A stretch of DNA of 64,000 nt, taken from assembly GCA_021464415.1 (NCBI GenBank), contig CM038469.1, forward strand, positions 33,637,883-33,701,882. Reading direction: 5' to 3'. The position numbers and the translations under genes were made by a program. Every line of letters begins with the position of its first letter. Position 1 is the stretch's first letter. Below, one piece after another: positions 8,350-59,732 of the stretch. This DNA is from Lonicera japonica (taxonomy: Eukaryota > Streptophyta > Magnoliopsida > Dipsacales > Caprifoliaceae). The notes under the pieces are model-generated. The model was not told the origin of the DNA and ran no database searches. It worked only from the letters and a program-made list of their open reading frames with translations.

Positions 8350-9419
8350 AGAGCTCCGAGGCGAGTCGGTGGAAGAGATAGAGAATTTTATTATGAATCC
8401 CTCCCGGCCCAACCTGATAGGGTCTTGAAAATCAGCGATCAACTCTACACAAAAATCCGAGAAGAGTTCTGTCAATGCCTACGAGCTAACGCAGATGTCT
8501 TCGCGTGGTCTCACGATGACATAAAGGGGGTTAACCCAGAGGTTATGGTACATAGGTTAAACGGCGACCCCTGTTTCACACCCATAAGACAGAAGAAGAG
8601 AAGTTTCGCGGCAGAAAGGAACTTGGCCGCAAAAGAAGAAGTTCAAAAACTCCTCTGAGCTGGCTTTATTCGAGAGGTACACTATCTAAAATGGCTCTCC
8701 AATGTAGTGCTCGTAAAAAAGTACAGCGACAAATGGAGGATGTGCGCGGACTTCAAAGACCTCAACAAAGCATGCCTAAAGGATAGTTTCCCACTGCCCA
8801 AGATCGACCAGCTTGTGGACACTACTATGGGCCAAAGATGTTAAGTTTCATGGATGCATACTTCGGATACAATCAGGTCAAGATGGCTCTAGAAGATGAG
8901 GAGAAAACTTCATTCGTCACAAACGAAGGCACGTACTGCTACAAGGCCATGCCTTTTGGTTTAAGAAACACGGGTGCTACCTACCAAAGGGTGATGAATG
9001 CGCTATTTAAAAATCAGATAGGTCGAAACATGGAGGTTTATGTTGACGATATGTTAGTCAAAAGCCTTAAAGCCAGGAGCCATGTGTCCGACTTCAACGA
9101 AGATTTCGCCATACTCAGACAGAACGGCATGTCTCTTAACCCGGCCAAGTGTGCTTTTGGAGTTAAAGGGGGACAATTATTAGGCTTCATGGTCACCCAA
9201 AGAGGGATTGAAGCTAACCCGAAGAAAATACGAGCCCTCATTGACATGAAGTCCCCGTCCAAGCCAAAAGAGGTCCAAAGTCTAGCAGAAAAAGTGGCCG
9301 CTCTCAACAGATTCATCTCTAGAGCAACTGACAAGTGCCACCCTTTTTTCAAAATATTGCGGAAGGCCTTCGAACGGACTGAAGAATGCGAGTTAGCTTT
9401 CCAGCAGCTCAAACAATAA
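8350..9419 (+). pseudogene. Gypsy reverse transcriptase, stop-broken
   Basis: Copies element RNA into DNA in the family. The N-terminal part (FAWSHDDIKGVNPEVMVHRL) lies at 8425-8658 and ends in a stop. WMCADFKDLNKA-type sequence follows at 8735-8770, a frameshift near 8835, then a long open stretch 8838-9419 with SFMDAYFGYNQVKM, MPFGLRNTGATYQR and the catalytic YVDDM at about 9040. The fingers and palm order is normal for Ty3/gypsy. Broken by at least one stop and one frameshift. Confidence 0.82.
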
Positions 9420-11609: not shown

Positions 11610-11723
11610 AACATAGAACACCTCAAAAAATACTACCCTTAAGTTCGGACATCTTGTACTTTTGCAAAGATTCAAAAGAATGTGAATAGAATGTTTTACT
11701 CAAATACTTCGTTATTTGTAACT

Positions 11724-12180
11724 TACACTCTGTTTATAAAAATCCTCACACAAAGAGGTTAGTTTAGTAAGTGTTCAGCTCGCCAGAAGCACACTTATAC
11801 TCTGTTTACAAAAAAAAAAAACCCTCTCACGAAGAGGTCAGTTTAGCAAATGTTCAGATCGACAGAAGCACACTTACACTCTGTTTATTAAAAACTTCTC
11901 ACAAAGAGGTCAGTTTAGTAAGTGTTCAGCTGGCCAGAAGCACACTCACACTTTGTTTATTAAAAACCTCTCACAAAGAGGTCAGTTTAGTAAATGTTCA
12001 GCTCGCCAGAAGCACACTTACACTTTGTTTACAAAAAAAAAAGCCCTCTCATGAAGAGGTCAGTTTAGTAAGTGTTCAGCTCGCCAGAAGCACACTTACA
12101 CTCTGTTAAAAAAAATACTCTCACGAAGAGGTCTGTTTAGTAAGTGTTCAGCTCGCTAGAAGCACACTTACACTCTGTCA
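11724..12180 (+). repeat. Tandem repeat block downstream of pol, about 75-bp units
   Basis: Six to seven head-to-tail copies of a unit containing AAGAGGTCAGTTTAGTAAGTGTTCAGC, CGCCAGAAGCACACTTACACTC and an A-rich spacer. Such blocks between pol and the 3' LTR are typical of Tat/Ogre elements. The unit reads open in one frame only because its length is near a multiple of three. Confidence 0.85.
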
Positions 12181-25845: not shown

Positions 25846-25883
<38 letters not shown>

Positions 25884-26868: not shown

Positions 26869-27005
<137 letters not shown>

Positions 27006-37231: not shown

Positions 37232-37240
37232 TTATAATAT

Positions 37241-38780
37241 GAGGCAATTAGGTATAAGGGCTCATTATACTAATAATATAATTATAAAGGACATTTAAAA
37301 ATTAGCTGTGTAAATTAAGGACACTATACAAAAAAGACACTAATACCCCTTCCTTAAAATATCGTCTCATTATAACACCAACAGCAACCAGAAGGTGCTA
37401 AATGCATTTAGCACCCTCTGCACAGCAACCAGAGGGTGCTAAATGCATTTAGCACTACAACCAAAAGGTACCAGAAGGTGCTAAATGCATTTAGCACCCT
37501 CTGGACAGCAACCAGAAGGTGCTAAATGCGTTTAGCACACACTGGACAGCAACCAGAGGGTGCTAAATGCGTTTAGCACCACAACCAGAAGGCGCTAAAT
37601 ACATTTAGCACCCGCTGGACAGCAATTAGAAGGTGCCAAATGCATTTAGCACCCCCTGGACAGCAACCAGAGGGTGCTAAATGCATTTAGCACCACAACC
37701 AGAAGGTGCTAAATGCATTTAGCACCCGCTAGACAGCAACGATAAGGTGCTAAATGCATTTAGCGCCACAACCAAAAGGTACTAAATGCATTTAGCACAC
37801 CCTAGAGAGCAACCAGAAGGTGCTAAATGCATTTAGCACCCTCTGGACAGCAACCAGAAGGTGCTAAATACATTAAGCACCACAACCAGAAGGTGCTAAA
37901 TGTATTTAGCACCCTCTGGACAGTAACCAAAGGGTGCTACATGCATTTAGCACCATCTAGACAATAACCAGAAGGTGCTAAATGCATTTAGCACCTTCTG
38001 AACAACAACCATAAGATAACACCACTTGAACAACAAATCAGAAGGTGCTAAAATAATTTTAGCACCATTACAAAATAGAGAACAACAAAATTGATGAGAT
38101 CAACATCCACTCAATTTATTTATATGTATATAGATATGGATCGACGTAGGGTTCGTAAAAAAATAAAAAAAAAAGAGAGTTACAATCATATTTTTTTTTC
38201 AAATCTCGCTGGGCTGTCAAAATTGATCGATTTCGATAGCAAAACGACTTCTGATCGTCTTAATTTTTCGCGCAATTGTAGTAACTTTATCTTCCGAACA
38301 ACATATCCAAAAATCAGCCAAATCCAACGGTTCGATCAAAAGTTATATATGTTTTACGATTGCAGATCTAGAAAAAAAAAAGAAAAAGAAGAAGAAGAAG
38401 AAGATGATAATGATGATGATGAGAACGATGATGATGAGAACGATGATCCTCTCGGAGATATGATCGGAGAGTAAGGTGGTGGTGGTGGTGGTGGTGGTGG
38501 TGAGACAACTTCTCTTTTCTCTTATTTTTTGTTTTCTCTCTCTAAACTATGTTTATGTAAGAGAGAATAATATGTCTTTTGTATAATTAGAATAAATGAT
38601 ATAGTAGGGTAGTTTTGTCCATCAACATTTATCATTTTCCTTAAAATAAATTAATATTATGAAAAGTGTCCTTATTGTAAAACCAAATTATGAAATTAGT
38701 ACTACTTCCCTTTATTAAACATGAATCCGTCCTTAGAGTTATAACACATTACGGAGCGAGACCTTATAACCCATTATCTC
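37241..38780. mobile_element. Mutator-like element 1, non-autonomous, with palindrome array
   Basis: Perfect 9-bp duplication TTATAATAT at 37232-37240 and 38781-38789. The left end GAGGCAATTAGGTATAAGGG is matched by the reverse-complemented right end GAGATAATGGGTTATAAGG. Subterminal TACTAAT, ATAATT and AAGGACAC words recur in both arms over 100 bp or more. The interior holds the palindrome array (37394-38066) and a 127-codon plus-strand frame ending in an Asp/Glu run (38091-38474) that I do not recognise. A (GGT)n run follows near 38475-38502. No transposase. The 9-bp duplication and long TIRs identify Mutator. Confidence 0.8.
37394..38066. repeat. Palindromic minisatellite, about 17 units
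   Basis: Each unit is a 22-bp palindrome: GGTGCTAAATG followed by its reverse complement. Two alternating spacers separate them, CTCTGGACAGCAACCAGAA-like (about 19 bp) and ACAACCAGAA-like (about 10 bp), giving a higher-order dimer pattern. Units differ by point changes, several on one side only, so the palindromes are decaying. The last unit (38045-38066) is the most diverged. Confidence 0.93.
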
Positions 38781-38789
38781 TTATAATAT

Positions 38790-39536
38790 TATATATAGTG
38801 GTCGGTCTAATTACTTTGATGAATTAGATGTTTAATAGTTTCGGGACTCTTTTATAAATATAATTAATTGTTTTGTTTGGCTTTATATTAATAGTAAAAA
38901 TCATGTTACAATATTATTACAAACAAAAAAAATAATAATTAAGAAACAGTAGTAGGTGTCTCTTTGAATTAGTCGTTAAAATTAAATCTCAATCTCCACC
39001 TATAATATATTTGTGTCCTTAAGTCAACGATGACTTAGGCAATGTGAGGTTAGCGAAACTTATTTACAAATTTTTCTATTTGGTATCGATGATATTTATC
39101 TAGTTACGTTAATTGGCATATCAGCATAATTTTTATATATTTGTTTAGTTGTCTTTCAATTTATAAATTAGATTATTTAAAATTAATTAATTTTACGTGA
39201 ATTATCTAATTTTAATGTTTGGGTATAAAAATGAACTAGCATAAAATTACTTAATTTTATGCCAAAAAATTCACATCAAATAATTTTTTGTTAAAATGAA
39301 AATTACGATTTAACAATTTATTATGAAGTGATTAATTATAAGTTTGTCAACGAACTATAAAGCCGTTGACGGAAGTTCCGTGTTTTGATTTTTGAGTTAT
39401 TGACATTTTCTCGAACAAAGTAATTGTCCAACATCGACTTCAACATAACATGTGGAATATAGATATGCATCGTCGATGACTCCGAATTTTGTTCATAATT
39501 TGTCGTCAGAGAAGTTGCTCTATTTCTAAAGTTGAA
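38790..39536. other. AT-rich intergenic, nothing recognised
   Basis: No gene or clear element. A minus-strand frame at 39336-39563 has no known domain. Confidence 0.4.
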
Positions 39537-39600
39537 GATCATATCTATGATACTACGTTGCAATGACCGTCTATCAGTAGTTTTAATTCTTAATGCGTTA

Positions 39601-39992
39601 GAGCATCTTCAATCGCTTTGTATAAATTTTGTGTAAATTCTAGGTGTCAAAGTGGGATTACACAAAAATAATAAAGAATTTGTTTTGTACTACAACAATC
39701 TGTTTTAGATTTTTATGTAAATATTAAACTACTAATTAGATACACACAACTGTCACTTATCCTATATTTATTCCCTTACTTTTCAAATCCATTTATTTTT
39801 AGAAACGGGATGAGAAAAAATAGATGCGAGATTATCTGACGTGGTTGTGTAAATTTGATTTGTATTTTATACAACCTTTTTACACAAATTCTAGGTGTCA
39901 AAAGTTTCTTAAAAGACTGCTGGATACTTTTTTTTTACAAAACGTGTAAATTTTACCCAAATCAAAATTATACACAACAGTTGGAGATGTTC
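39601..39992. mobile_element. Tourist-like MITE (GAGCATCTTCAA family)
   Basis: Left GAGCATCTTCAATCGCTTTG; right end reverse-complemented GAACATCTCCAACTGTTGTG. TTA at 39598-39600 and 39993-39995. The insertion interrupts dispersed repeat copy 1, which supports the borders. Confidence 0.7.
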
Positions 39993-41169
39993 TTAGGAAT
40001 CATTTTTTCCAAAAATTTAAGTTGTTAGAAAAAATAATCATAATAAATATCATACTTAACATCCTTCTTCACGTGAAGGGCAAATAGGAACATGATCATG
40101 CAAAACAAACAGATTCTGAAATAACAAATGGGGATTGAAGACGCCAAAACTTGAACCATAGACCTCCTAAACGACTAGGTTCTGATACCATGTTAGGAAG
40201 TAGGAACAATCTCTCCCAAACAATTCAGCTGCTAGGAGAAGGAAAACGCAAAGAATATTATGCTTAACATAATGGTACAAAAAGTTGGAGATCCTCTACA
40301 ATTATTTGAAATAGGACTGTGAAAAAAGTTTAAAAATCTAAAATAAAAATGGAGAGAAATAAATTTTTTTTTAATTAAGGGTCTATCTTTAATCAAATTT
40401 AAAAAGGCTGGAGTTTTGCAACATTAACTTTATATTATATTTTCGGATTGCATTTTTTTTATGGTATCGTATAATATTAAGTTTGTAATATATGTTTTTT
40501 AGCAGATTACTATGTTTAAGTGTTTAATTGATAGATTTTCAGAGTTATTTCAACAAGTTACAAATTTAAAGTTATCTATTGATAGAAACGCGCATGATAA
40601 TTTTTATGGGTTATGCAAATTGAAGTTGGTCCTTATTTTTTTAATACAACAAGTGTGATACATAAAAATATATTTGCTAAAAAATAAAAACACATCATGC
40701 GAAAAAAAATAAAAATTTGGGATTGCAACAAAATTTATAAATTTGCACAAAGTACAATTTTGATCAAACATCCTATTTTAAAACACAATTGATAAACATG
40801 TATTCTATGCTAACAAGAATTAAAAAAATAGCCTTATTTCAAGAAAATATTATTCTTTGGATTTTTTTTGAAAAAACATTCACGTGGAGTGAGTTTTTAT
40901 CCATTGCTTAGTTAAATTTTTTGAAAAGTAGATAAATTTGAGATAAAAGTTTAAACAATATATGTGAAAATAAACTTGAAAATAAAACAATACATAGACT
41001 TTTTACATAGGAATTGAAGACTAGATGCGGGCATACACATAACGTGTATGTATGTCATATTTTCATGCAAGTGTAAAATTAGTATAAAATTATTATTGAA
41101 TTGGTGGTTAAAAATAATGTTTTTTTATCTCTAGCTAGTTTGAGTTCAGCTAACTACACGTTTTATTTA

Positions 41170-41717
41170 GGGTGCGTTTGATTGCAAGCATGAAATTTAC
41201 ATGGAAAGAAAATAAGTTCCAGGTAATTGAATTGCCTAGAATTGAGTTGCATGGAAAATGTAATTAAATGTGTTTGATTGCCTTAATTTTCTACCCGAAA
41301 AATATTGGTTATATTGTGGCATTTTTAATGTAAAAAAAATTATGGGTATTTTTTTTTTTACATAATTTTATAGTCATGATGGATCTTGTTTAATTGATCT
41401 TGATGAGTAGATTTTAAATATAAAATTTTTATTAAATTTTGAATTTTGCAGTTTAAGTTATAGCATTTTTAGTGTAGAAAATGGGTAAAATGTTGTCTCG
41501 AAAACCGTGCAATTGCATGGAAAATAAAAACTAGCCCCCCCCCCCCCCCCCCCCCCAAAAGAAAATATTTTCCTTGTTTAGAAGGAAAATGTAAGTGTGT
41601 GAGTAAAAGTTGAAAAATATTTTCCCTAAAAAAAAAAGCCAATCAAACACCTTAAGTTATCAAATCAAGTGGAAAATGGGTATTTTTCATGAAAAATACT
41701 CCCAATCAAACACACCA
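41170..41717. mobile_element. Tourist-like MITE containing a poly(C) tract
   Basis: Left GGGTGCGTTTGATTG; right end reverse-complemented TGGTGTGTTTGATTGGGAG. TTA at 41167-41169 and 41718-41720. A run of 22 C lies at 41535-41556. Confidence 0.65.
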
Positions 41718-41869
41718 TTAAAGTAATAAGAGTAAAATAAAAAAAATTACAAAATTTAGTCTTTTCGCCTACTCTTATTTTATAAAAGTATAGATGTTTT
41801 AATTATTTGACTAGCCAATAAAAGGTGGTGACTTCGAAATCTACATAATATACAAGGCTAAAAATTTGA

Positions 41870-41968
41870 AACATTAGGATTAATCTAGTGGCTAGAATTC
41901 GCTATTGATTAGCCGAAAGTCCTGAGTTTGATTCTTGCTTTGAAAATTAAAAAAATTTTGGTGGTGCA
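41870..41968 (+). mobile_element. SINE-like (tRNA-derived) insertion
   Basis: Extra 95-100 bp relative to dispersed repeat copies 2 and 3. It contains TAGTGGCTAGAATTCGC (A-box-like) and GAGTTTGATTCTTG (B-box-like) at tRNA-like spacing. Ends are not precise. Confidence 0.4.
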
Positions 41969-42780
41969 TGTGCCCCACCTTTACCTATCTAAATTCTTCA
42001 CTGGGCCCACTCCAATACCCAGGTCAAGCAACAATTTTTCTTTTTCTCTTTTTTTTTCTGTGCAAAAAAATAAAATAAAATGTGGACCACAAAACATGGC
42101 CATAATGCGAAAAGATACATCCATATAAGGGGAGCACAGAACATATAATGGCTAATCTTTATAATGGGTTTGTAGATGTCCAATTTTATTTTTTTAATGG
42201 GTTTATTTTTACTCATTATTTTTTTATAAAAATATATTTAGTAATAATAATTTAGATTTACCCACCTTAATTTAGGAGAAAAATGACTCTTTATCCACTT
42301 TATTCTATGTTATCATGAATTTATAGGAAGTACAGTGCTAATTTCACTTTATTTTATTAGTTTAGCACTACAAAATTATGTATGATAATACTTTATAAGA
42401 ATACTTTTTACACGATTTATGAAATACTAAACTATCAAAAGAAAATGTAATTAATTATGCATCAAAATTATTTTTCGTCCACCTTATGACTCCATTGAAA
42501 ACATAGTCTCAAAAGAATAGTTTTACAAAATAAATACTTTTATCTAATCTTATACGCAAAATACAATTCTAAAATATAAAATTTATCATCGTGCTTCGAA
42601 CTAAAAAATATACTGAAAGTTGAGAAATCTACATGTATGTACACAAAGGGCAAAAAACACCACGATTTCAAAAGGAGCACAAGAAGGAAGAAAAAAAATA
42701 TAGAAAGAAGAAAACACTCTAAAGATTTAAAAGCATATTATACATCTCATTATATCGAAATACCTAATACAATATATATA

Positions 42781-44095
42781 TTATTCATATCTACGATACT
42801 ACACATAGTTTAGGGCCGGCAATATTTGACACGACACGCTAACCCGATACGAACTTGACACGGAGTTAACGGGTTTGGGTCAAGCATAAACGGGTTCGAG
42901 TCAATTTCGGGTCAGACACGCTTAATCCGTAAATTAAACGGGCCGTGTTCGGGTTAACCCGCTAACTCGAAATTGACCCGCAATTAACACGATTATTATT
43001 TTTATTTTCTTTTACAGCTATATATATATAAATTTTATTTTGCCATATTTCTTGAACAATTATATTCTTATTTGGAGTATTGGTAGTAGATGATAGTTAT
43101 TATGTTTTTAATGATAGATAAAATACTAATTTTTTTAGGTTTATGCTTCGGTGATGGAATGTTATATATTTTGACTCTAGATTATTAATATTGAATTTTG
43201 GTATTGGTTGATACTTATTATTACTTATTAAAAATTTAAAACTATTATAAAACAAGTTAATTTTTTTCACATGAGACTTAATTGTCATTATAATCTTAAA
43301 AGGTTAATCGTGTCGTGTCGAGTTGTAGATTTAACATGACCTATTTATTAAACGGGTTAGTCGGGTCGTGTCGTGTAACTTGTAAAATAAACAGGTCGTG
43401 TTCGAGTTAATATAAATGACACGATTAGTTAAACGGGTTGTGTTCGGGTTGACACTAATACTGTAATATTTGTGTATTGACACGACCCGAACAAGACACG
43501 CGAACCCGAATTGCCAGCCCTACATAGTTCCCATATATGTAATTCTCGATGCAATGACCATCTTTTCAGTAATTTTAATTCTAAATGAAATGGTACAAGA
43601 AGTTGGACAGCAGCTCTACAATTATCTGAAATATGAAGGTGAAAAAAGTTTAAAAATCTATTGTAAAAATGTTGGAGAGAGTAAACTTTTAAGGAAAATT
43701 TCGAACAACGTACAATTTGGGAAAAGTAGATAAATTTGATATAAAAGGTTAAATAATATATGCGAAAATAAATCTGAAAACAAAAAGATACATACAAACT
43801 TTTTATATAAGAAGATGTTTCAATTATTTGATTAGTCAATACAAGGTGGGTCACTTCTAAACCTACGTCATAATAATATAAAAGGCTAAAAATTAATGTT
43901 TTCAATGCCCCACGTTAGCTATCTAAATTTGCCAAATCCCTTTTACGGGAGATCATCTACTAAGTATAGATAAATAAATTATCTTTACATTTTCAAAATG
44001 AATGATTTATTAAATTAGCCGGTTTTTGTTATTTTTTGGGTATCTATGTACAATAAATCTAGTTGTTTGTAAGATTGTAACTTGTATTTATACTA
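42781..44095. repeat. Dispersed repeat copy 2, interrupted by a hAT-like element
   Basis: Matches copy 3 (49617-50190) from TTATTCATATCT through ACACATAGTTCCC, AATTCTCGATGCAATGACC and AAGATGTTTCAATTATTTGA to AAGATTGTAACTTGTATTTAT. The only large difference is the 712-bp insertion at 42811-43522. Function unknown; no coding capacity in common. Confidence 0.75.
42811..43522. mobile_element. hAT-like non-autonomous element with verified empty site
   Basis: TAGGGCCGGCAAT at the left and ATTGCCAGCCCTA at the right. CATAGTT is duplicated (42804-42810 and 43523-43529); if the element ends at 43521 the duplication is the 8-bp ACATAGTT. The paralogous repeat at 49640-49655 reads CACATAGTTCCC with no insert and a single copy of the target. 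Interior rich in CGTGTCG/CGGGTT words; no transposase. Confidence 0.82.
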
Positions 44096-44813
44096 GATAT
44101 GTCTGCGTCGGAATCCGTAAAATATCTCTTTGATTGAAAGCGTATTAGTCATATAATATATTGTTCCACCAGAATCCACTGGGTCGCAAATAGTGATTAC
44201 GTTGATGATGAAGAAAGAGAATATATTTTACTTGTATTTAGTCTTTCCAGATTTCAAATCATATAGGAATTTTTTAGAATTGGATTTGTTGAATTGGTTC
44301 ATCAATAGTCTTCGGTCAGAATCCGTCAATGACGGGTAAGGCGGTCAAGCTTCCTGTGCCTATCTGGTCCGAGCGGTAAGTTAGTGCTGCTATAAGGATG
44401 TGGTAGTTGTTCCAATACACAAACAAGGTAAGTTGGGGTTTAGTGAAAGGGCCTTCTCTTGTTGTTGTCGAGTGCCTATAGCTTTACTTCGTATTGAGTT
44501 TCTAAAAACTCATCCGAAATTCGATTCATTAAGAAGATATCGTAGATTGTAGAATATTTATACCAAATTTCATTATAAGCACCATGTTAAAAATAACTCA
44601 GCTCTCCACCTGTTTGTTTTCAATATGCATAGCTTGAATTTGATGCTCGAAGTTGACCCATTTAGCGGCGTTGTAATTATAAGATCTATAAGCCATATAA
44701 TATCTGTTTAGGACCTATTTTTAACCACTCGTGAAGATTTCACCCATACTTAGAAAATTCTTACCAATTATGTGTAGTGTTATCGGGGTGCACAACAAAT
44801 TGTCAGGCCTACT
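44096..44813. other. Intergenic with weak repeat
   Basis: GTAGAATATTTATACCAAATTTC near 44552 and the flanking GATTCATTAAGAAGATATCG recur in diverged form near 47705-47800. No gene. Confidence 0.4.
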
Positions 44814-45900
44814 ATAAAGGTAGGGAAAATAGGTTGAGAGACCTTCTTTCATAATTTTATACAACCAAAGGACATCATATATTAGCTTAATGAATGAAGG
44901 ATTTTTTAACATTATTGTTTTATTGTAAGGACAATTTTAGCTTTTAAGTTAGTTGTAAGTATTTTGTCTTTTATAAATTAGATAATTTAAGAATTTTAAA
45001 ATGACTAAACTACCCTTCCATCTTCTAACTCATAATCCCGCGCACATACCAGTGAGGAGCGAGAGAGGCGACGACTGGTAGAGTGGGGAAATTACACTAC
45101 GATTCAAGAGAGGAATGCTATCATCTTAGATTGACGGAAAGCATCTTAGATCGACAGGATTAACAAAGGAAAGGAGAAGAAATTTCTTAGTTCCATGGAT
45201 GTTGAAACACTATCTAGGTATAGCTTTTTTTTCATGTTTTTACCTGTGATTTTGCTTCGTTTTGGTTTGTTGTAGCTTATATTTAGAGGATTTGATGAAA
45301 TAGTGTTCAATCAATCTATGTATATTTAGATTATGGAGGATTTGATGAATGCTCTGTTTTTCTTTTCTTTTCTTCCCAACTACAAAAAAACTGCAAAACT
45401 GATTTTGCAGTTCTTTTAGTTTTGATGATATATTTAGATTATAGAGAGAGCTATCACATTTTTTGCTTATATTTGTGCAAAAGTTGTAGAAATATTACTT
45501 CATTTTGGATGTTTTAGATTATATTTGAAAGATTTGATTCAATAATGAATGATTGTTCATGTTTTTAAAGATAGTTTTAGCATCCTTGTGATCTATCTAT
45601 GTATATGCTCTGTTTTTTGTTTTTCTCCTTTGTGCAGAAAAAACTGCAAAACTGATTTTGCAGTTTTTTAGTTTTTAATCTAAGTTTTTTTAAGTGCATT
45701 ATTTCTGCATTTGATTCTTATATTGTAGGTTTTGGTTAGTTTAAATGCGTGATTTCATATGTGAATGAATTATACATGTTTGTTATGTAATGCATTGCTT
45801 CTAAGTTTTTATGTTTCATTTTTTAGGGATCTTGATAGAGGAATTATAGGCGTGGTTTATTACAATGATTGTTCTTTTAGAAGTTAATTGTTTCTTGGTA

Positions 45901-46679
45901 TGAATGTTGAAGAACTAAAACGTTTGGTGTGTGAGAGGTGGTCCGATATTAATCCCTTGTGTGTAGACCTATTTGTTACTCGTGATGACAAGGAGTTTGT
46001 TACTTAATCATTGGGTTAATGCGTTTTTTTTGGGAAGAAGATATGGTGTTATGTGTTCTAATATGGCCGAAAGTTATAACTCGTGGGTTGCAAATGAACG
46101 AAATCTTCCTATAACAACAATGTTAGATCAAATTCGTGTGAACATAATGAAACAAATGTCGGATAGACGTGAATTGTCGAGGAATTGAAAAACTCTCTTT
46201 TGTCCGGAGGTTGAAAAATGCTTGAAGGAGAAGGTTAATGAGAGTTCGACATGGAGGGTTGTCAAATCATCTGATTCCGTCTTTGAGGTTATAGAGCAAA
46301 AGTCTTATCGCGTAGATCTTTCGACATAGGAATGTGGTTGTAATTCATAGCGGATTGATGGCTTCTCATGTTCGCATGCCGTTTTGTGTATTTTGGCTGA
46401 TAGGAGGTTGTTTATGATTATTGCGATCCTTGTTTCTTTACGTGTAACTTTCAGAGTTCTTATGCACATGCAATTTACCCGGTGCCAACTTCTGAACGTC
46501 CTACTAATGTCTCTGCTGTATCGAAAATTTTATCTCTCGATTGTAAAACTCAACCCGATCGTCCTAAAAAGAATCGAATTGAGAGCGCCGACTCAAGCAC
46601 AAAGAAGAAACAAAAGTGTGGAAGGTGTAATCGTTATGGATATCACAATAAGAAGACGTGTACTGCATCGATTGTTTAG
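45901..46679 (+). pseudogene. MuDR-type transposase remnant lacking the catalytic core
   Basis: N-terminal MNVEELKRLVCERW at 45901 runs for about 30 codons, then the sequence jumps in a new frame to a C-terminal part: [60 protein letters not shown]-type zinc motif is split by a stop (ECGCNS, stop, RIDGFSCSHAV), followed in another frame by a knuckle CGRCNRYGYHNKKTC (46615-46660). The DDE core between these parts is missing. At least three frameshifts or stops. Mutator transposases normally cut and join the element ends; this one cannot. Confidence 0.75.
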
Positions 46680-46904
46680 ATTTTACTATGGCATAGTATA
46701 ATTACATTTAACGAGTATTTAGAATTTTGAAATTCTTGGTATGATTGAGAATTTTTTTTGGATTCCTTTAGTTTTGATTTTAAAAGAATGTAATTTTGAT
46801 TTTGATATATGAATGGTGATATTTTTCTATTTTTGTGGAATAAACAATATCAAGATTTTTGCTATTCTTTTCAAGTTGTTTATTTGAATGCGAAAGACTT
46901 TGAT

Positions 46905-47215
46905 TATCTATGTTAAATTGCACTCAAATTTAGTGCAAAAGGATTTTTGGAGTCAAATATTTTTGGTAAATTGCATGCCCATTTAGTGCAAAATCGTTTT
47001 TGCAGTGAAATGTTACTAAAGATTGCATGCGCATTTAGTGCAAAATCGTTTTTGCAGTGAAATATTTTTAAAGATTACACGCGCATTTAGTGCAAAATCG
47101 TTTTTGCACTGAAATATATCAGTGCAAAAACGATTTTGCACTAAATGCGAGTGCAATCTTTTGAAATATTTCACTGCAAAATTGATTTTGCACTAAATTG
47201 GGTATGGCTAGGAAT
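46905..47215. repeat. Palindrome array of Mutator-like element 2
   Basis: Four direct units of about 60 bp with core GTGCAAAATCG...TTTTTGCA, then two units in inverted orientation. At the turn, 47082-47112 and 47119-47149 are perfect 31-bp reverse complements with a 6-base loop. Confidence 0.9.
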
Positions 47216-47504
47216 GCAATTCATAGCCAGCATTCAGTAATTAGATTGGAGATCTTTGTTGATGAAGGAGATTGAGTTACGAAAATTACGTGAGTAGAAC
47301 TGAATTGCAAATCGTGTGAGAGGAGTAGGAGATTGATGGCACAACTCGTAATTAACCAAAAAAGAAAGGGAGTTTTTTTAACTTTAGTAAGACACTTGTC
47401 ATTTTTATATTAATTGTCCTTAATTTATAATAGTAATGTAAGGTGTCCTTTTATTGATTTTAATTTTGTAGGATGCCCTTTAAACCCATTGCCCCATAAA
47501 GGTA

Positions 47505-49616
47505 TTTAAAGAAAATTAATTGTTATATGTAGGCTGGATCAGATCAAACAAGTTAAATTTATGTGAATTTGGATCCGACCTAAGCTCGTGTTGGATATTT
47601 GTTGTAGAACTCATACTTACCCCATGTTTCAAAAAATCTATTTCAACCACATTTATTAGGGAGATTTTCCAAAATCCAGTCCCAAATCTGATTCGATAGA
47701 TAGATATATTAGGTCGTCGAATATTTATACCAAATTTTAATATAAGCATCGGTTAGAAGAACTCGACCCAATCTGATTCGTTAGGGAGATATCGTAACGT
47801 ACCCAATAAATTATCTAGATTCTATAAACTCACCCCACTTTTATTCCTTATGCTAAACGGGGAACTATAAAACCAAAGCTTTCATCCTTCCACAAAATCA
47901 CTATAACTCGAGCATAAAATTTCTAAATTAAGCCAGCAAAATATACTATGTCCAACTATTGTTGCCGATTCAATCCACCAAAATCCTTGTTGTGATGAAA
48001 TGGGTTTTTATTTTAAGGATTTGTACATAGCTAGATTTTCTATCACTACTAAAGGAGTCTTTATTCCAAGGTTGCAATTTGATCTGAAAAAGAGACCGAT
48101 TGTAACAAAAATGTCGAAGGGTATTAACTAAGGGGTATACCAAAGTTAGATTTAATGGTCAAATTTGGAGCACAAAATGGAAAAGAATATGGGTGGCTGC
48201 TTGGTTCACTGGCAAAGATGATGAAAGTTGAGTAAATGTTGTTGTCGAGTTGAAGATTTAAAAAGGTTTACTTGAGCGTATTTCGAGGGCATGTTAAATG
48301 CAGTGACGAAAAGGGCCTGATTGTCTCACGGGATCAGCTATTTCTACTCGGCTTCTCTCTAGAAGTATTTTGAAATTCAAAATATTAAACATGAAAATAA
48401 AATTGTATATATACATTATGTATTATATATAGACAGATTATTTCTGAAACGCACCGGTGCGTACGCACTAGTGAAAAATACGTAGGTCCCAGCTAAAAAG
48501 TAAACGGAGTGAAAGCGGCAGAGAAAGAAATTAGACGGAGGGAATTAAAACAAGGACTGACCCTTTCTCTTCTCTCTCCACTAACTGGAAATTTTGCTTT
48601 CATCGGCGTTCATTTTCTCTCTACGGAAACCTTCTCTCTCTACCGTGCTCTCTCTCTACTGCTCTACCGATTATTTTCCTCCTCTTTCTCCACCGCCCGA
48701 CTGACCTCCTCTCTCTATCTACCGCTCTACCGACTAACCTCTCTCTCTAAAGCATTTCCGAAGAGACGAGCTTCCAAACATTGAAGGAAAGCATTAACAG
48801 ATGTATGAACTGATTTGGGTTTGTTGAAGTTTATTTTGAGTTTCGTTTTGCCAATTAATTAGATTGTCGAGTTGCTCTGCTGGGATTGTCCACTGAATTT
48901 TGGGTTTAATGAAGGTGTGAAATTTTGGTTTGGGTTTAATGAAGGGAATTTTGGGATTGTCCACTGAAATTTGGGTTTAATGGAGTTGTGAAATTACATC
49001 TTGTCCACTGATATACATTCTTCTTTGGGTGCATTTCGAATGAAGAGATTACGATTGTTCACTGAAATTTGGGTTTGATACTTGTTTGTTTTAGGTGAGA
49101 TTTGGGTTTGATACTCCTCTGAAATTTGGATGTCATACTTGTTAGATTTTGGGATTGTTATGTTGTAATCAGTTTATTGTATACTTGTCTTTGTTGTAAT
49201 TAGATTTGGGGATTGTTATGTTAGATATGTATGTATGCATATATTTGTTTAATGTTTCTTTTTTGCTCCAGCAATAAACGAATCAATATTTTGATGGTGG
49301 AATAATATAAAATGGACATGAGATGAAAAAGATTAGAGGCAAATCAATTAGCGCAGAGTGAATAGTTGAAAACATATTAAGACCTTGTTTGTTTAAACAT
49401 TTTTAATATTTTCTATTAAATTTAAATCATTAAGTGAAATAAGAGCGTATTAAGGTGTGTATATATTAAATTATCCTTTATTTATTATGTACGGTTCATT
49501 GATATAAAGTAACCGATGAAGTTCACAATTACCACTCATCATTTTTGCGTTCATCATTTTCTTAAGTGCGTGTTGTTCTTTTCTCTCCCAACCATCTTCC
49601 ACAATCCAGAATCATT
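47505..49616. other. Intergenic; CT-rich leader-like stretch
   Basis: No gene recognised. 48565-48750 is strongly CT-rich (CTCTCTCTACCG repeats) and lies in a 91-codon frame (48509-48784) without a domain. It may be the 5' leader of a lost gene or an element part. GTTTGGGTTTAATGAAGG and TTGTCCACTGAA words repeat at 48890-49010. Confidence 0.4.
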
Positions 49617-50190
49617 TATTCATATCTGTAATACTACACATAGTTCCCATGTAATTCTCGATGCAATGACCGTCTTTTCAGTAATTTTAATTCTAAATGA
49701 AATGCTACAAAATGTTGGACATCAGCTCTACAATTATCTGAAATATTAAGGTGAAAAAAGTTTAAAAATCTAAAGTAAAAATGTTAGAGATAGAAAACTT
49801 TTGAGGAAAATATCGGACAACATTTTTTGGAATATAGACTTTTTTTTTTTACCACAAAAGTAGACTTTCTTTGTTTTTTAGCAATCATGTGGACTTTTTA
49901 TATAAGAAGATGTTTCAATTATTTGATTAGTCAACAGAAGGTGGGTCACTTTTAAATCTACGCCATAATAATAAAAAAGGCTAAAAATTAAAGTTTCAAT
50001 GCCCCACCTTATGTATCTAAATTTGCCACTCCACCTACGGGGGAGATGATTTATTAAATACCGAGTTTATTTTTATAAAATTTTATTAAAATAAAATCAT
50101 CTGTTTACTTCTTTAAATTTGTTGCTTTTTATTTTTTTCATATCTATGTATGTTAAATCCTATTATTTATAAGATTATAACTTGTATTTA
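49617..50190. repeat. Dispersed repeat copy 3 (uninterrupted)
   Basis: Continuous match to copy 2 without the hAT-like insert; see copy 2 for shared words. Confidence 0.75.
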
Positions 50191-50294
50191 TATTTTTTTT
50201 TCTTTTTGTTATAAATTTTATTCAAAAAAAATAAAAACTAAAGGAGCGAGTATATATATAGCATAATTATACATATTATTCATAATTTAAAAAA

Positions 50295-50990
50295 GGGGCA
50301 ATTAAAAAAGAGGGCTTATTAGAGAAAGATTTTCACACTAAGGCCAAGGAATAAAAATTTTTTAAATAAAGGGCCTATTTTTTATTTTATTGATAATATG
50401 ACATGTGTCTTTTTTTTTTCATTATAAAATGACATCCCAACCCTTAAAATAAACTAAAAAAATATCAATATGCATTAAAATATGGACTGCAATATGAACT
50501 TTGCAGTCTATATTTCACTGCAATATGAACTTTGCAGTCCATATTTCATTGCAATGTGAACTTTGCAGTCGATATTTTTAGTGCAAAGTTCATATTGCAG
50601 TTCATATTTTACTGCAATGTGAACTTTGCAGTCCATATTTTTAGTGCAAAGTTCATATTGCAGTACATATTTCACTGCAATATGAACTTTGCAGTTCATA
50701 TTTTATTGCATATGAACTTTGCAGTCCATATTTTTTTGTGAAAATTTCATAAAAAGGGGTAATTTAGGTAATACATAACATGTTTTTATTAATTAAATGA
50801 TATTTAAATTTATTCAAATACATTCATTTAAAATATAAAACAAAATAGGCCTCTTACACTAATTACCAATTAAAAATAGGCCCTTCATTCAAATTACCAA
50901 TTAAAAATAGGCCCTTCATTCAAAAAAATATTATTCATTGGATTTTTGGTAAAAATCAATGTATAATAAGCCCTTCTACCTAATTTCTAG
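50295..50990. mobile_element. Mutator-like element 3, non-autonomous, at the P450 promoter
   Basis: Perfect 9-bp duplication TTTAAAAAA at 50286-50294 and 50991-50999. The left GGGGCAATTAAAAAAGAGGGC pairs with the reverse-complemented right CTAGAAATTAGGTAGAAGGGC. Both continue TTATTA...AAAGGGCCTATTTTT, giving about 90-bp imperfect TIRs. The right TIR shares AATTAGGTAnAAGGGCTnATTATAC with element 1. No ORF; the interior is a palindrome array. It ends about 100 bp before the P450 ATG. Confidence 0.85.
50485..50730. repeat. Palindrome array of Mutator-like element 3
   Basis: About eight units of roughly 30-36 bp. The core ACTGCAATATGAACTTTGCAGT has inverted ends (ACTGCAA/TTTGCAGT), with CCATATTT spacers. 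Two units are inverted relative to the rest (AGTGCAAAGTTCATATTGCAG). Confidence 0.9.
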
Positions 50991-51021
50991 TTTAAAAAAT
51001 AAAGTAGGGCCGGGCCATCCT

Positions 51022-54098: not shown

Positions 54099-54774
54099 TG
54101 TTGTGAACGTGGGAACAATAACCAATTCCCAAATCCACCAATAAACTCGAGAAATCCCTTTCGGGAATTTCCACAAACACTTGGCGGGCGGAAACCGTCA
54201 AGCAATAGGATCGTTGATCAAACCAAGAATCACCAACACAAACTCAAGCAAATATAGATGGAAGATAAATAGCAATGACAATCAAGAGCAAAATAAAGCA
54301 AGAAAGAACACACCGTGTTTTGTGGAATCCTTTGGGTCTTCCACCAAGATGGAGCAACTTTTATTGATAACCAAGAACTTACAAGAATTCTCTCACAATA
54401 ATCCTTACTCTAGATCAATGGAACAAACCTCCAAAGATCACCTCTCACCTTAGCTAAACCCTAGCTAAGCACAAGTCTTTCTCTCTTCCACTCTCACAAA
54501 GCAACTCTTTTCAAGTCTATCCAAAATAGAAATAAGCCTTCCTATTTATACCAAGTGAAAAAACAAGACAAAAAGTTTTTACCCGCCCAGGTGCAAAACA
54601 CATTTTGCACCCATTCTCGAGTACACTGACTTGGTGCAAAACATGTTTTGCACCTCCGCCGAGTACACTGTTTTGGTGCAAAAGACCTTTTGCACCCAAT
54701 CCGCATGCACTGTTTTGGTGCAAAAACTGTTTTGCACCATACCTGCTTGCATTGATTACAAGCCAAACACAACA
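54099..54774 (-). repeat. 3' LTR of the young copia element
   Basis: Pairs with 59057-59732. Contains the four-unit palindrome array at about 54590-54740. Confidence 0.95.
54590..54740. repeat. Palindrome array inside the copia 3' LTR
   Basis: Four 22-bp units GGTGCAAAA-nnnn-TTTTGCACC separated by 20-21 bp spacers containing GAGTACACTG or GCATGCACTG. Centre bases vary (CACA, CATG, GACC, ACTG) while arms are constant. The same array is in the 5' LTR at about 59548-59698. Confidence 0.92.
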
Positions 54775-54787
54775 ATCTCCACCTTGG
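54775..54787 (-). other. Polypurine tract of the young copia element
   Basis: CCAAGGTGGAGAT on the minus strand, adjoining the 3' LTR. Confidence 0.75.
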
Positions 54788-54887
54788 CGAGTAATCCCAA
54801 GCCAACCTCGATTGCTTCACCTCGGGATAAGAACCGTGCATCCCCTTAGAGATTATCCCGATACCTCCAAGGTCACACCCTCCTCCT

Positions 54888-57800
54888 TCAACATGAAGTG
54901 AGATTAAGAAGCTTTAGGCAATGCCTAAACTTCTCCGCGGTTACCGGTTTTGTGAGCATATCGGCCGCATTCTCATCCGTATTCACCTTTTCTAGGACGA
55001 CTTCCCCGGAATTAACCCAATCCCGAACTCGGTGATACCGCACATCTATGTGCTTCGTGCGAGCATGATACACTTGATTCTTTGCCAAGTAAAGCGCACT
55101 TTGACTATCACACCGTAGCAAAATACTCTCATGCTTCAAACACAACTCGCTCACTAAGCCTTTCAACCATACCGCCTCCTTCGACGCCTCCGTGAGTGCC
55201 ATATACTCTGCCTCTGTGGTAGACAAAGCGCTTGTTGCTTGTAACATAGATCTCCACGAAACCGGCCCACTTGCCAAAGTGAACACATAACCCGTGGTTG
55301 ACCTTCTTTTATCAAGGTCCCCCGCATAATCGGAGTCTACGAATCACGCAACACTATCAGCCCCATCTTTTCGCTCAAACACTATACCCAAGGACTTGGT
55401 ACCCTGTAGATATCGAAGAACCCATTTAACCGCATTCCAATGCTCTTTACCCGGATTCGACATATACCTACTAACCATTCCAACCGCGTGAGCTAGATCC
55501 GGCCTTGTACACACCATGGCATACATTAGACAACCAACCGCGCAAGCATACGGTGTTGTCGACATCTCGGCACACTCATCAAGAGAGGAAGGACATTGCT
55601 TTGCGGACAAAGCAAAATGAGGAGCTAACGGAGTAGAAACCGGTTTCGCACTCGACATATTGAATTTCTCAATGACATGAAAAATATATTTCTTTTGCGA
55701 AAGCCACAACTTGCCAACCTTTCTATCTCTCCGAATCTCCATACCAAGGATCTTTTGTGCAGCCCCAAGATCCTTCATGTCAAATTCCCGGCCCAATTGC
55801 ACCTTGAGCTCCTTCACCTTTGACATATCTCGACACGCTATAAGCATATCATCCACATAAAGCATCAACAAGATAAATGAGCCATCATCAAAGTTCCGAA
55901 CATAGGCACAATGATCACCATCACACCGACGATAACCAATCCGCAACATAAATGAATCAAACCGTAGGTACCATTGCTTTGGCGACTGCTTTAGTCCATA
56001 CAATGACTTCTTGAGCCGACAAACAAATTTTTCCTTACCTACTTCCTTGAACCCTTCCGGTTGCGCCATGTAAATCGTCTCCTTCAAATCACCATGAAGA
56101 AAAGCCGTTTTTACATCCATTTGCTCAAGCTCCAAATCAAATTGAGCTACCATAGCAAGCAAAACCCGTATCGAAGTGTGTCTCACAACCGGGGAAAAAA
56201 TCTCATCATAATCAACCCCTTCCTTTTGAGCAAACCCCTTCGCTACTAACCGTGCCTTGAATTTCGGTGCTTCATCTTTGTTGATTGCTTCTTTCTTCCT
56301 AAATACCCATTTAGAACCGATAATGCTCCGGTCCTTGGGCCTAGGAACCAAATCCCAAACAGAATTCATTCGTAAAGCCTCCATCTCCTCTACCATAGCA
56401 CCCATCCAACTATCCTTGTCTTCGACACTGATGGCTTCCTTATAACTAGTTGGATCACCCTCACTTGTAATAAGGGCATAGTTGACCTCGTCTTCCCAAC
56501 CAAACCTTGAGGGTGATTTGATTGCCCGTCGTGGTCTATCTCGTGCTATCGATGGTTCCGGCTCCACCTCACCCGGTCTTTCCTCGGATTCCTCTTCCTT
56601 TAGCTCCACCTCAATCGCGTCGTCATTCGGTTGAATTTCATGAGAATCATCTCTACTACCGATTGAAGATGCTCCACCACTTCCGGTAACCGACGGACTT
56701 GGAACTAGAATTGGAATCTTGACCGTATTAACCCCACCGTTATCATTGATCTCTTGGTATTCCCGTTCCTTAAGCATAGCCCCCTCATCAAATGTCACAT
56801 CCCGGCTAAACAAAAGCTTTCTCGCTACCGGATCCCAAAGCTTGAACCCTTTCACCTCTCCCCCAAAACCGAGAAAGATACACCGGTGAGCCTTCGGGTC
56901 ATTCTTTGATCTCTCGTCGCTAGGAATATGAGCATATACCGGGCACCCGAATACTCTTAACTTAGAGTAGTCCACTTCTCGCCCCGACCATACTTCTTCC
57001 GGAAATTTCAAACCAAGATTCACATTCGGTGACCTATTGACCAAGTATACGGCATGATCAACACAAGCCGCCCAAAATGTTTTCGGCAAACCCGCATGAA
57101 TCCTCATACTTCTTGCCCTATCCATAATGGTACGGTTCATTCTCTCCGCAACTCCATTTTGTTGTGGAGTTTTCTTCACGGTAAAGTGCCTTTTGATGCC
57201 GGCATTCTTGCAAAACTTCACGAATTCTCCATCCTTATACTCCCCTCCGTTGTCACTTCTCAAATACTTTACTTTTCGACCCGTTTGATTTTCCACCATA
57301 GCCTTCCACTCCTTGAATTTTCCGAAAACCTCGGATTTTTCCCTCAAGTAGTAGACCCAAACTCGACGTGAAAAATCATCAACAAAAGTCATAAAATATT
57401 TGAAACCGCCCAAAGAAACTACCTCTAAAGGGCCACACACATTGGAGTGAATATAATCAAGCATACCTCGGCTTTTGTGTTCCGCGGTATCAAATCGAAC
57501 TCTAGTTTGCTTGCCCATCACACAATACTTGCAGAAATCGAGCTTGCACCCATGGACCCCCTTCAACAATTTTCGTCGATGAAGCTCCTCCATGCCTCGT
57601 TGGCTCATGTGGCCAAGCCTCATATGCCATAACAAAAGCTCATCACCTTCCGCTTCCGTGGAAACCGCCGCTCCACCAACCACCGTGGTTCCTTTCAACC
57701 TATAAAGGTTGTTCGATGACTTTGTGCCGCGCAAAATCACCATTGATCCCTTCTTCACCTTCATAGCCCCGTCTTCGGCTTGAATCACACACCCTTTTGA

Positions 57801-58967
57801 GTCGAGCGTGCCTAAGGAGATCAAATTCTTCTTGAGAGCGGGTACGTGTCTAACATCACTTAGTGTACGGGTCACGCCATCCCACATCTTTATTTTCACC
57901 GTGCCTATACCGACAACTTTGCATGTAGCATCATTGCCCATGAAGATTTCTCCTCCATTACATTCCGTGTAATCAACGAACCAATTACGATTCGGGCACA
58001 AGTGATAGGAGTATCCGGAATCAAGAATCCACCCACTACTTTGATCCACTAAAAAACAAGTAAGAACATCGGTGTTAACCTCTTGGTCCACCTCTTGGGT
58101 CGCAACTCCCGCAACCTCCCTTGGCGCGTCCGCCTTCTTACCTTTTAGCTTCGGGCAATTCTTCTTGATGTGGCCTACCTTGTGACATTTAAAGCACTCC
58201 CAATTACTTCGATCTCATGATTGAGACCGACCCGTGCCTCTATTCTTGGCACCCCGTGACCTTGACCGCCCACTTCGTTCACCACCACCACTCTTGGCAA
58301 CCAAGCCTTCACTTGATGAAGAGTTTGCCCCGTTACCTCCCTTTTTCATGGTCACGTGCGATTGGAGGTCCTTGACAACCTCATTAAACTTGAGCGTTGT
58401 CTTGCCAAATATCAATGTGGTAACAAAGTGATCATAGGAGTCCGGCAATGAAGCAAGCAACAATAAGGCGCGGTCCTCCTCATCAAATACAACATCAATT
58501 CTCTCAAGGTCATGCACTATTGCCTTGAAGACATTGATGTGCTTGTTCAAATCTTGCCCCTCCTTCATTTCCAACTTAAAAAGTTGCTTCTTGAGGTTCA
58601 ACTTGTTGGACATAGACTTCCCTATGTACATTTCCTCCATCCTAGTCCACATATCCTTTGCATTCTTCTCCGACATCAAGTTTCTCAACACTTCGTCGGT
58701 CACATGCATCTCTATAGCGGACATAGCTTTCTTATCAATCTTATTCCATTGGTCTTCGGACATCTCTTGCGGCTTTTTCTCAAGTCCAAGCAATGCAACT
58801 TGCAAATTCGATTGGACGAGTACCCCCCGCATCCGCCTTTGCCAAATACCGAAATTGATAACCTCGTCATAAGGCTTTATCTTAACCTCCATAGTGCTCC
58901 CAACACCTACAATGGTAGAAGAACTAACTTGTGTTGCAACAACTCCGGTTTGAGTCCCTTCGGCCAT
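54888..58967 (-). pseudogene. Copia gag-pol, one frame with two TGA stops
   Basis: Gag starts at 58967 (UBN2-like IWQRRMRGVL, LNLKKQLFKLEMKEGQ). TGA at 58215-58217 precedes a CCHC knuckle CFKCHKVGHIKKNC. Protease WILDSGYSYHLC (D-S-G). Integrase: HMRLGHM...CKYC zinc part, then IHSNVCGP where the first catalytic Asp is Asn; SDNGGEY and NGVAERMNRT keep the second Asp and the Glu. RT: KARLVAKGFAQKEGVDYDE, DVKTAFLHGDL, YVDDMLIA. A second TGA (55344-55346) lies just before the RNase H part ([36 protein letters not shown]). Both TGA codons fall where CGA would keep the family Arg. No frameshift, so it decayed only by point changes. Confidence 0.9.
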
Positions 58968-59042
58968 TTATCGAACACTTGGCGCACAAACCTTGCACCC
59001 AATAGCCAAACCTTGATACCAAACACTAGGCACCAACCAAAT

Positions 59043-59054
59043 CCTCTGATACCA
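59043..59054 (-). other. Primer-binding site of the young copia element
   Basis: TGGTATCAGAGG, two bases after the 5' LTR; complementary to the initiator tRNA-Met 3' end as in most copia elements. Confidence 0.85.
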
Positions 59055-59056
59055 CT

Positions 59057-59732
59057 TGTTGTGAACGTGGGAACAATAACCAATTCCCAAATCCACCAAT
59101 AAACTCGAGAAATCCCTTTCGGGAATTTCCACAAACACTTGGCGGGCGGAAACCGTCAAGCAATAGGATCGTTGATCAAACCAAGAATCACCAACACAAA
59201 CTCAAGCAAATATAGATGGAAGATAAATAGCAATGACAATCAAGAGCAAAATAAAGCAAGAAAGAACACACCGTGTTTTGTGGAATCCTTTGGGTCTTCC
59301 ACCAAGATGGAGCAACTTTTATTGATAACCAAGAACTTACAAGAATTCTCTCACAATAATCCTTACTCTAGATCAATGGAACAAACCTCCAAAGATCACC
59401 TATCACCTTAGCTAAACCCTAGCTAAGCACAAGTCTTTCTCTCTTCCACTATCACAAAGCAACTCTTTTCAGGTCTATCCAAAATAGAAATAAGCCTTCC
59501 TATTTATACCAAGTGAAAAAACAAGACAAAAAGTTTTTACCCGCCCAGGTGCAAAACACATTTTGCACCCATTCTCGAGTACACTGACTTGGTGCAAAAC
59601 ATGTTTTGCACCTCCGCCGAGTACACTGTTTTGGTGCAAAAGACCTTTTGCACCCAATCCGCATGCACTGTTTTGGTGCAAAAACTGTTTTGCACCATAC
59701 CTGCTTGGATTGATTACAAGCCAAACACAACA
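59057..59732 (-). repeat. 5' LTR of the young copia element
   Basis: Partner of 54099-54774. Differences noted near 59402, 59452, 59472 and 59707. Confidence 0.95.

Follow-up and report, generated by a model that had tools for sequence, protein, structure and literature searches.

A 22-bp palindromic unit common to arrays of Mutator-like elements and a Ty1-copia retrotransposon in Lonicera japonica

In the CACTA transposon En/Spm, subterminal repeats are bound by TNPA; many short sites, present in both orientations, are recognized by this one protein, and they are linked to activation. In the long terminal repeat (LTR) of the copia retrotransposon ONSEN, heat-response elements are formed by inverted half-sites for a host factor. 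Three further systems are considered here. The LTRs of Sirevirus copia elements contain palindromic repeated-motif (RM) boxes upstream of the TATA box, 12 of 13 of which possess a CGG-CCG core, and these boxes form CpG islands (PMC2829016). The VANC proteins of Arabidopsis VANDAL elements bind motifs, which are often arranged in tandem repeats, and remove silencing (PMC5735166). In maize, the palindrome CACCGGACNNNGTCCGGTG is abundant in both Copia and Helitron elements (PMC10760457). The present study deals with palindrome arrays in a stretch of 64,000 nucleotides of Lonicera japonica (assembly GCA_021464415.1, contig CM038469.1, positions 33,637,883 to 33,701,882), hereafter the window, in which three Mutator-like elements (MULEs), designated elements 1 to 3, and the LTRs of a Ty1-copia retrotransposon carry arrays of a common 22-bp unit.

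This unit consists of a 9-bp half-site, a 4-bp spacer and the inverted half-site and is found in all four arrays of the window. The half-site consensus is RSTGCWAAA, with the form RSTGCWAWR in element 3, and among the 66 half-sites of the 33 clustered units, T at base 3 and G at base 4 each occur in 64, C at base 5 in all 66 and A at base 7 in 65. The half-sites of element 2 are AGTGCAAAA and ACTGCAAAA, those of element 3 ACTGCAATA, ACTGCAATG, ACTGCAAAG and AGTGCAAAG. Segments scoring at least 15 of 18 occur 46 times in the 64 kb, for which six first-order Markov simulations gave 6.0 on average; 39 of the 46 lie inside the four elements and seven elsewhere. A first-pass annotation of this DNA had reported the three MULEs with their exact 9-bp flanking repeats TTATAATAT, ATAAAGGTA and TTTAAAAAA and a palindrome array in each of them, all of which was confirmed: the arrays contain 16 units in element 1, six clustered and two isolated exact units (at 45390 and 45643) in element 2 and seven units in element 3. 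It had further regarded the units of the three arrays as unrelated to each other, which did not hold, since a single half-site consensus and a spacer of 4 bp describe all of them; the units of the three MULEs are variants of one half-site. The trait is not limited to MULEs either, as such units are also present in copia LTRs, the array of which the annotation had missed, and in an LTR-like family; arrays of the same units outside of the three elements are an outcome that the annotation had listed as speaking against its proposal. Overall, the earlier observation was partly confirmed and its interpretation partly supported.

The arrays share individual features with each of several described systems. 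The TNPA sites of En/Spm are subterminal, and unit, ends and target duplication are different here; ONSEN has a different motif and represents one family, whereas the present site occurs in two element classes. As in the RM boxes of Sireviruses, a core is common to divergent elements while the middle bases are variable, and a palindrome cluster is located shortly upstream of the TATA box of an LTR, here at a distance of 39 bp; however, the half-site RSTGCWAAA lacks the CGG-CCG core, and the site is also found in Mutator-like DNA transposons (compare PMC2829016). Similar to the VANC target repeats, the arrays are tandem arrangements of a short motif, which lie in non-coding parts of MULEs and vary between related elements (PMC5735166 and PMC10398659). 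In contrast to the 22-bp palindrome described here, the VANC21 motif given there, YAGTATTAY, is a single 9-mer, and VANDAL elements encode VANC themselves. YAGTATTAY has three matches in the 64 kb, compared with a chance mean of 2.64, and none in the four elements, and clusters of this motif were rejected as the identity of the arrays in view of this chance-level count; other VANC proteins have other motifs. With the maize palindrome, the site shares the abundance of one palindrome in two transposon superfamilies, but motif and classes differ, and the maize case is explained by secondary structure and small RNAs (PMC10760457). Literature searches, judged by titles and the beginnings of abstracts, yielded no match for this site, for its joint occurrence in MULEs and copia elements or for the phasing described below.

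Variant bases, defined as departures from the majority of an alignment column, are reduced in the half-sites of two unrelated element classes in the same direction. For the copia element, 14 LTRs were compared, which comprise the two LTRs of the window and 12 of 40 listed LTRs (chosen from the longer or more divergent sequences; some elements contribute both of their LTRs). Variant bases amount to 4 of 1008 in the half-sites, 11 of 224 in the spacers, 22 of 854 between the units and 179 of 7380 in the remaining LTR; Fisher p values, which are optimistic as the copies are related by descent, are 1.6e-6 for half-sites versus the rest of the LTR and 4e-6 versus spacers. In 28 copies of element 1, 83 of 8037 bases are variant in the half-sites, 69 of 1788 in the spacers, 285 of 6966 between the units and 565 of 25826 in the rest of the element (p of 2.6e-12 versus the rest and 7e-15 versus spacers, read with the same reservation), and the deficit in the half-sites is present for A, C, G and T each. 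The HD-ZIP L1-box, TAAATGCA, was set aside as the target of the element 1 array, since variation in the spacer, in which part of the box lies, is about the same as in the sequence between the units and the other arrays have no L1-box.

The units are also arranged at recurring distances. Measured from start to start, neighbouring units are 41-42 or 32 bp apart in element 1, 52-53 and 32 bp in element 2, 31-32 bp in element 3 and 42-43 bp in the copia LTRs. The classes of 31-32, 41-43 and 52-53 bp correspond to about three, four and five turns of 10.5 bp, and the phase vector of the 54 listed neighbour distances of up to 120 bp reaches 0.70 at 10.5 bp, the highest value among 13 periods from 8 to 14 bp. 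In the genome, which was searched over 886 Mb in 967 contigs, the pattern RSTGCWAAA-N4-TTTWGCASY has 16,503 exact matches, which are copies spread by transposition rather than independent sites, compared with a chance expectation of about 1.3 (assumed GC content of 0.35) and no match of the reversed control pattern. The comparison of spacer lengths covered 4 bp and 5-16 bp; the latter together gave 4,205 sites versus 379 in the control, and a 5-bp spacer is present in 47 of the 50 distinct places listed for this search. Eight further stretches with the site were read, which are designated L063 to L070. Four of them (L064, L065, L068 and L070) have common flanks and a TATATATA stretch near the array, with unit spacings of 30, 33, 43, 44 and 51 bp, likewise near three, four and five turns; the start of L064 resembles that of the copia LTR by eye, and the four look like one LTR-like family that carries the site. 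L063 resembles element 2, while L067 and L069 contain GGTGCTAAA-type arrays with spacers of both 4 and 5 bp.

These patterns make it rather probable that the arrays are clustered cis-acting sites for one putative dimeric DNA-binding protein, or for several related ones that form a small family. Such a dimer would read two inverted copies of RSTGCWAAA separated by a spacer of 4 bp and sometimes 5 bp, and, with neighbouring sites mostly three, four or five helical turns apart, bound dimers would be located on the same face of the DNA and could act jointly. The array of the copia LTR is placed like an upstream activating sequence, 39 bp before the TATA box, which would be compatible with promoter-proximal activation. 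In the MULEs, the array is internal, and its effect would be in cis, on the element that carries it; for element 1, this is suggested by the retention of the array although no gene was seen that it could serve, and the benefit would most simply be open or unmethylated chromatin or direct help to transposition. We infer that a protein binds the arrays and activates or de-silences the elements, and that it is the same one in both classes; the presence of the site in two element classes tips the balance slightly towards a host factor. It is tempting to go further and speculate, with the odds leaning somewhat against it, that the arrays form a cross-class transposon regulon, for which MULE and LTR retrotransposon families have built helically phased arrays for one dimeric factor and are activated, or shielded from silencing, together.

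Several observations weigh against the assignment of the arrays to a dimeric protein. The high genomic count reflects the copying of elements, and among the matches listed, which cover the first 4.1 Mb of one contig, 57 of 65 distinct places represent the TGCTAAA type or a mixed one, mostly element-1-like, and eight the TGCAAAA type; the units of element 3, with their variants at bases 8 and 9, lie outside of the searched pattern and of the count of 16,503. The spacer rule is not absolute, given that 5-bp spacers occur, and the shared descent of the copies makes the variation statistics look stronger than they are. Periods of 10.0 and 11.0 bp also reach a phase strength of 0.58 and one of 12.5 bp reaches 0.56, element 1 dominates the listed spacings, and off-phase distances of 38, 76, 77 and 97 bp are found among them; further off-phase distances are 48 bp in L066, 92 bp in L063, 60 and 134 bp in L067, 184 and 187 bp in L069 and 142 bp in L029. 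Finally, elements 2 and 3 share the short flank ATATTTC before ACTGCAA, because of which their two arrays may be related by descent, and this slightly lowers the confidence in a common protein site. Capture or recombination could accordingly have carried a single array from one family to another, or the array could be ancestral, with subsequent minisatellite expansion; the likeness would then be due to descent and not to function. MULEs often capture foreign sequence, and the units do expand, as seen from a fifth unit in some copia LTRs. However, the arrays of element 1 and of the copia element have, by eye, no likeness to the others outside of the unit, the periods differ between the arrays, and half-sites would not be spared in a neutral repeat, so that likeness by descent has a low probability. 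It is lower still, and close to negligible, for neutral minisatellites without function, which would account for tandem copies and changes in copy number; low half-site variation in two unrelated families and a common spacer length would not be expected from them.

Alternatively, the arrays might bind a transposon-encoded protein, either a VANC-like anti-silencing factor or a transposase or TNPA-like protein of this Mutator-like lineage. Non-autonomous elements would then keep the sites for mobilization or de-silencing in trans, and the copia element would exploit the same protein or have reached the site independently. In PMC5735166, VANC targets are described as short tandem-repeat motifs in non-coding parts of MULEs that diverge between families, which agrees with this possibility, as does the constraint on half-sites in element 1, where no coding frame was seen. 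A Mutator-encoded protein does not directly explain the site in copia and LTR-like families, though, and with the VANC21 motif at chance level in the window and absent from the four elements, this explanation is considered unlikely, albeit worth keeping in mind. The palindromic structure could also be selected or generated as such, for instance as hairpin RNA feeding small RNAs, as cruciform DNA or as a by-product of hairpin repair. The copia array is predicted to fold at -70 kcal/mol, compared with a mean of -44.7 kcal/mol for shuffled sequences (z -6.35), arrays with different palindromes are present in the genome, and Sirevirus LTR palindromes are described as small-RNA hotspots (PMC5311732). 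Fold strength by itself cannot separate a hairpin from a protein site, because any palindrome array folds strongly. Some positions no longer pair although they keep the half-site class: position 2 of the unit is paired in two of the six element 2 units, and in element 3, position 8 is paired in none and position 9 in two of the seven units. Moreover, the half-site sequence itself, beyond its pairing, recurs in different element classes, and hairpins do not call for helical phasing. A structural origin is thus improbable, and the selected hairpin production that the first-pass annotation had listed among the possible roles fits poorly; despite the strong fold, the hairpin as the selected feature is disfavoured. 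A dimeric protein is preferred over a selected hairpin because pairing is lost, the sequence recurs across classes and the spacers vary.

Table 1. Elements, arrays and promoter motif in the window (positions count from its first nucleotide).
Feature	Position	Strand	Remarks
Element 1, non-autonomous Mutator-like element, 1540 bp	37241..38780	+	target duplication TTATAATAT at 37232-37240 and 38781-38789
Element 1 array	37394..37995		16 units, consensus GGTGCTAAA-TGCA-TTTAGCACC
Element 2, Mutator-like element, 2673 bp	44823..47495	+	target duplication ATAAAGGTA at 44814-44822 and 47496-47504
Element 2 array	46932..47194		6 units, 5 of 6 exact RSTGCAAAA-N4-TTTTGCASY
Element 3, short Mutator-like element, 696 bp	50295..50990	+	target duplication TTTAAAAAA at 50286-50294 and 50991-50999
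Element 3 array	50486..50695		7 units, e.g., ACTGCAATA-TGAA-CTTTGCAGT
Ty1-copia LTR retrotransposon	54099..59732	-	LTRs 54099-54774 and 59057-59732, duplication ATTAA, gag and pol on the - strand
Copia array, downstream (3') LTR	54590..54738		4 units GGTGCAAAA-N4-TTTTGCACC, 42-43 bp apart, all spacers different
TATA box TATAAATAG of the 5' LTR	59500..59508	-	array edge 39 bp away
Copia array, 5' LTR (transcript direction)	59548..59696		directly upstream of the TATA box

The assignment of elements 1 to 3 to the MULEs is based on the 9-bp target site duplication, which is exact in all three, and on terminal inverted repeats, which are present but imperfect (18, 19 and 19 matches in the first 30 bases of elements 1, 2 and 3, respectively). 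Related termini with subterminal AAGGACA words had been described for all three elements; in the terminal 200 bp on each side, the words are present in elements 1 and 2, but absent from element 3. No coding frame was seen in element 1. Element 2 contains broken reading frames, which are transposase-like by eye, and L067 includes a fragment with the look of a MuDR/MULE-type transposase, again by eye; these pieces gave no Pfam match. The best 40 of 5213 first-look candidates for element 1 have identities of 89-100%. Of 28 copies, including that of the window, 17 are flanked by an exact 9-bp duplication where it would be expected and another two by one shifted by 1-3 bp; none was found in the other nine, in seven of which the alignment is cut short. 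All 28 copies read retain the array, with 15-17 units each, so that for element 1 a general lack of arrays among family members, which the first-pass annotation had named as evidence against its proposal, was not seen. For element 2, 40 of 720 candidates were scored, and 30 copies, including that of the window, are nearly full length with identities of 86-100%. The best 40 of 2164 candidates for element 3 are full length and 98-100% identical, which points to a recent amplification of this element; one further listed place has 92% identity.

The copia element has LTRs, a 5-bp duplication and a copia-type gag and pol (Pfam matches), as expected for Ty1-copia. It is young, with four differences between the 676 bases of its LTRs. 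No separate frame of at least 250 amino acids was found apart from gag and pol, and because of this and its length of 5.6 kb, the element is probably no Sirevirus. In the copia LTRs L051 to L053, the array has grown within the family by an extra, fifth unit, which is one more 42-bp repeat.

Palindrome arrays were also counted in 20 random loci of 10 kb each. A rule that demands exact arms, and that misses element 3 and its copy L031, detected eight arrays in these loci and four in the window, two of which are the two LTRs of one element, and none in each of eight third-order Markov simulations. Of the eight, the one in L048 turned out to be a long inverted repeat and no array, and two each lie in L043 and L029. 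Clusters of the RSTGCWAAA site are present in two of the random loci, namely in L031 and at L029:5954-6386, the 3' side of which is element-3-like by eye, and three other loci have one weaker site each. The first-pass annotation had proposed that array structure, not its sequence, is repeatedly generated or selected. This does not apply to the three MULEs of the window; however, arrays with truly different units exist elsewhere (L042, L043, L035/L044 and L029:160-800). Within the few loci sampled, palindrome arrays are common, and to this extent the broader idea can be maintained.

The arrays with other units differ in motif and arrangement. L043:5615-5834 and 8873-9028 contain ATGATCGATCAT palindromes, mostly 20-21 and 41-43 bp apart (one 61 bp), and the former array follows a frame that by eye resembles the end of a retrotransposon polyprotein. 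The related sequences L044:1-192 and L035:1383-1743 carry arrays of the CpG-rich palindrome TGTCGCGCGACA with spacings of 20-22, 31, 33 and 80-81 bp; the array in L044 lies directly upstream of a TATA-like sequence. In L042:7718-8318, an array of TTAGGCGAC/GTCGCCTAA with a spacing of 40-45 bp is found, in which the words TTAGGCGACG and CGTCGCCTAA make long palindromes; the words mostly recur every 38-46 bp and have no helical phase. L029:160-800 has a GGATTACTG/CAGTAATCC palindrome array of the form GGATTACTGG...CAGTAATCC. The segment 41300-41720 of the window is related to L048:500-1480, where the sequence forms a long inverted repeat that has C-runs and is palindromic at its centre. The window itself contains a run of about 135 C at 26869-27003 (97% match) and a run of 37 C at 25847-25883, which are either real or an assembly artefact, and a minisatellite at 11721-12178 with a 72-bp unit that includes the hairpin-like CCTCTCACGAAGAGG.

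If DNA transposons and retrotransposons are both under the control of one protein via a shared, countable site, the question of which factor wakes many families at once would become directly testable, and the 22-bp unit is a ready bait for this putative factor. The regulatory arrays of transposons would then converge on one site across classes, beyond a single lineage such as the Sireviruses or the VANDALs. Should the arrays indeed form a regulon, elements with unrelated transposition chemistry would mobilize as one response.

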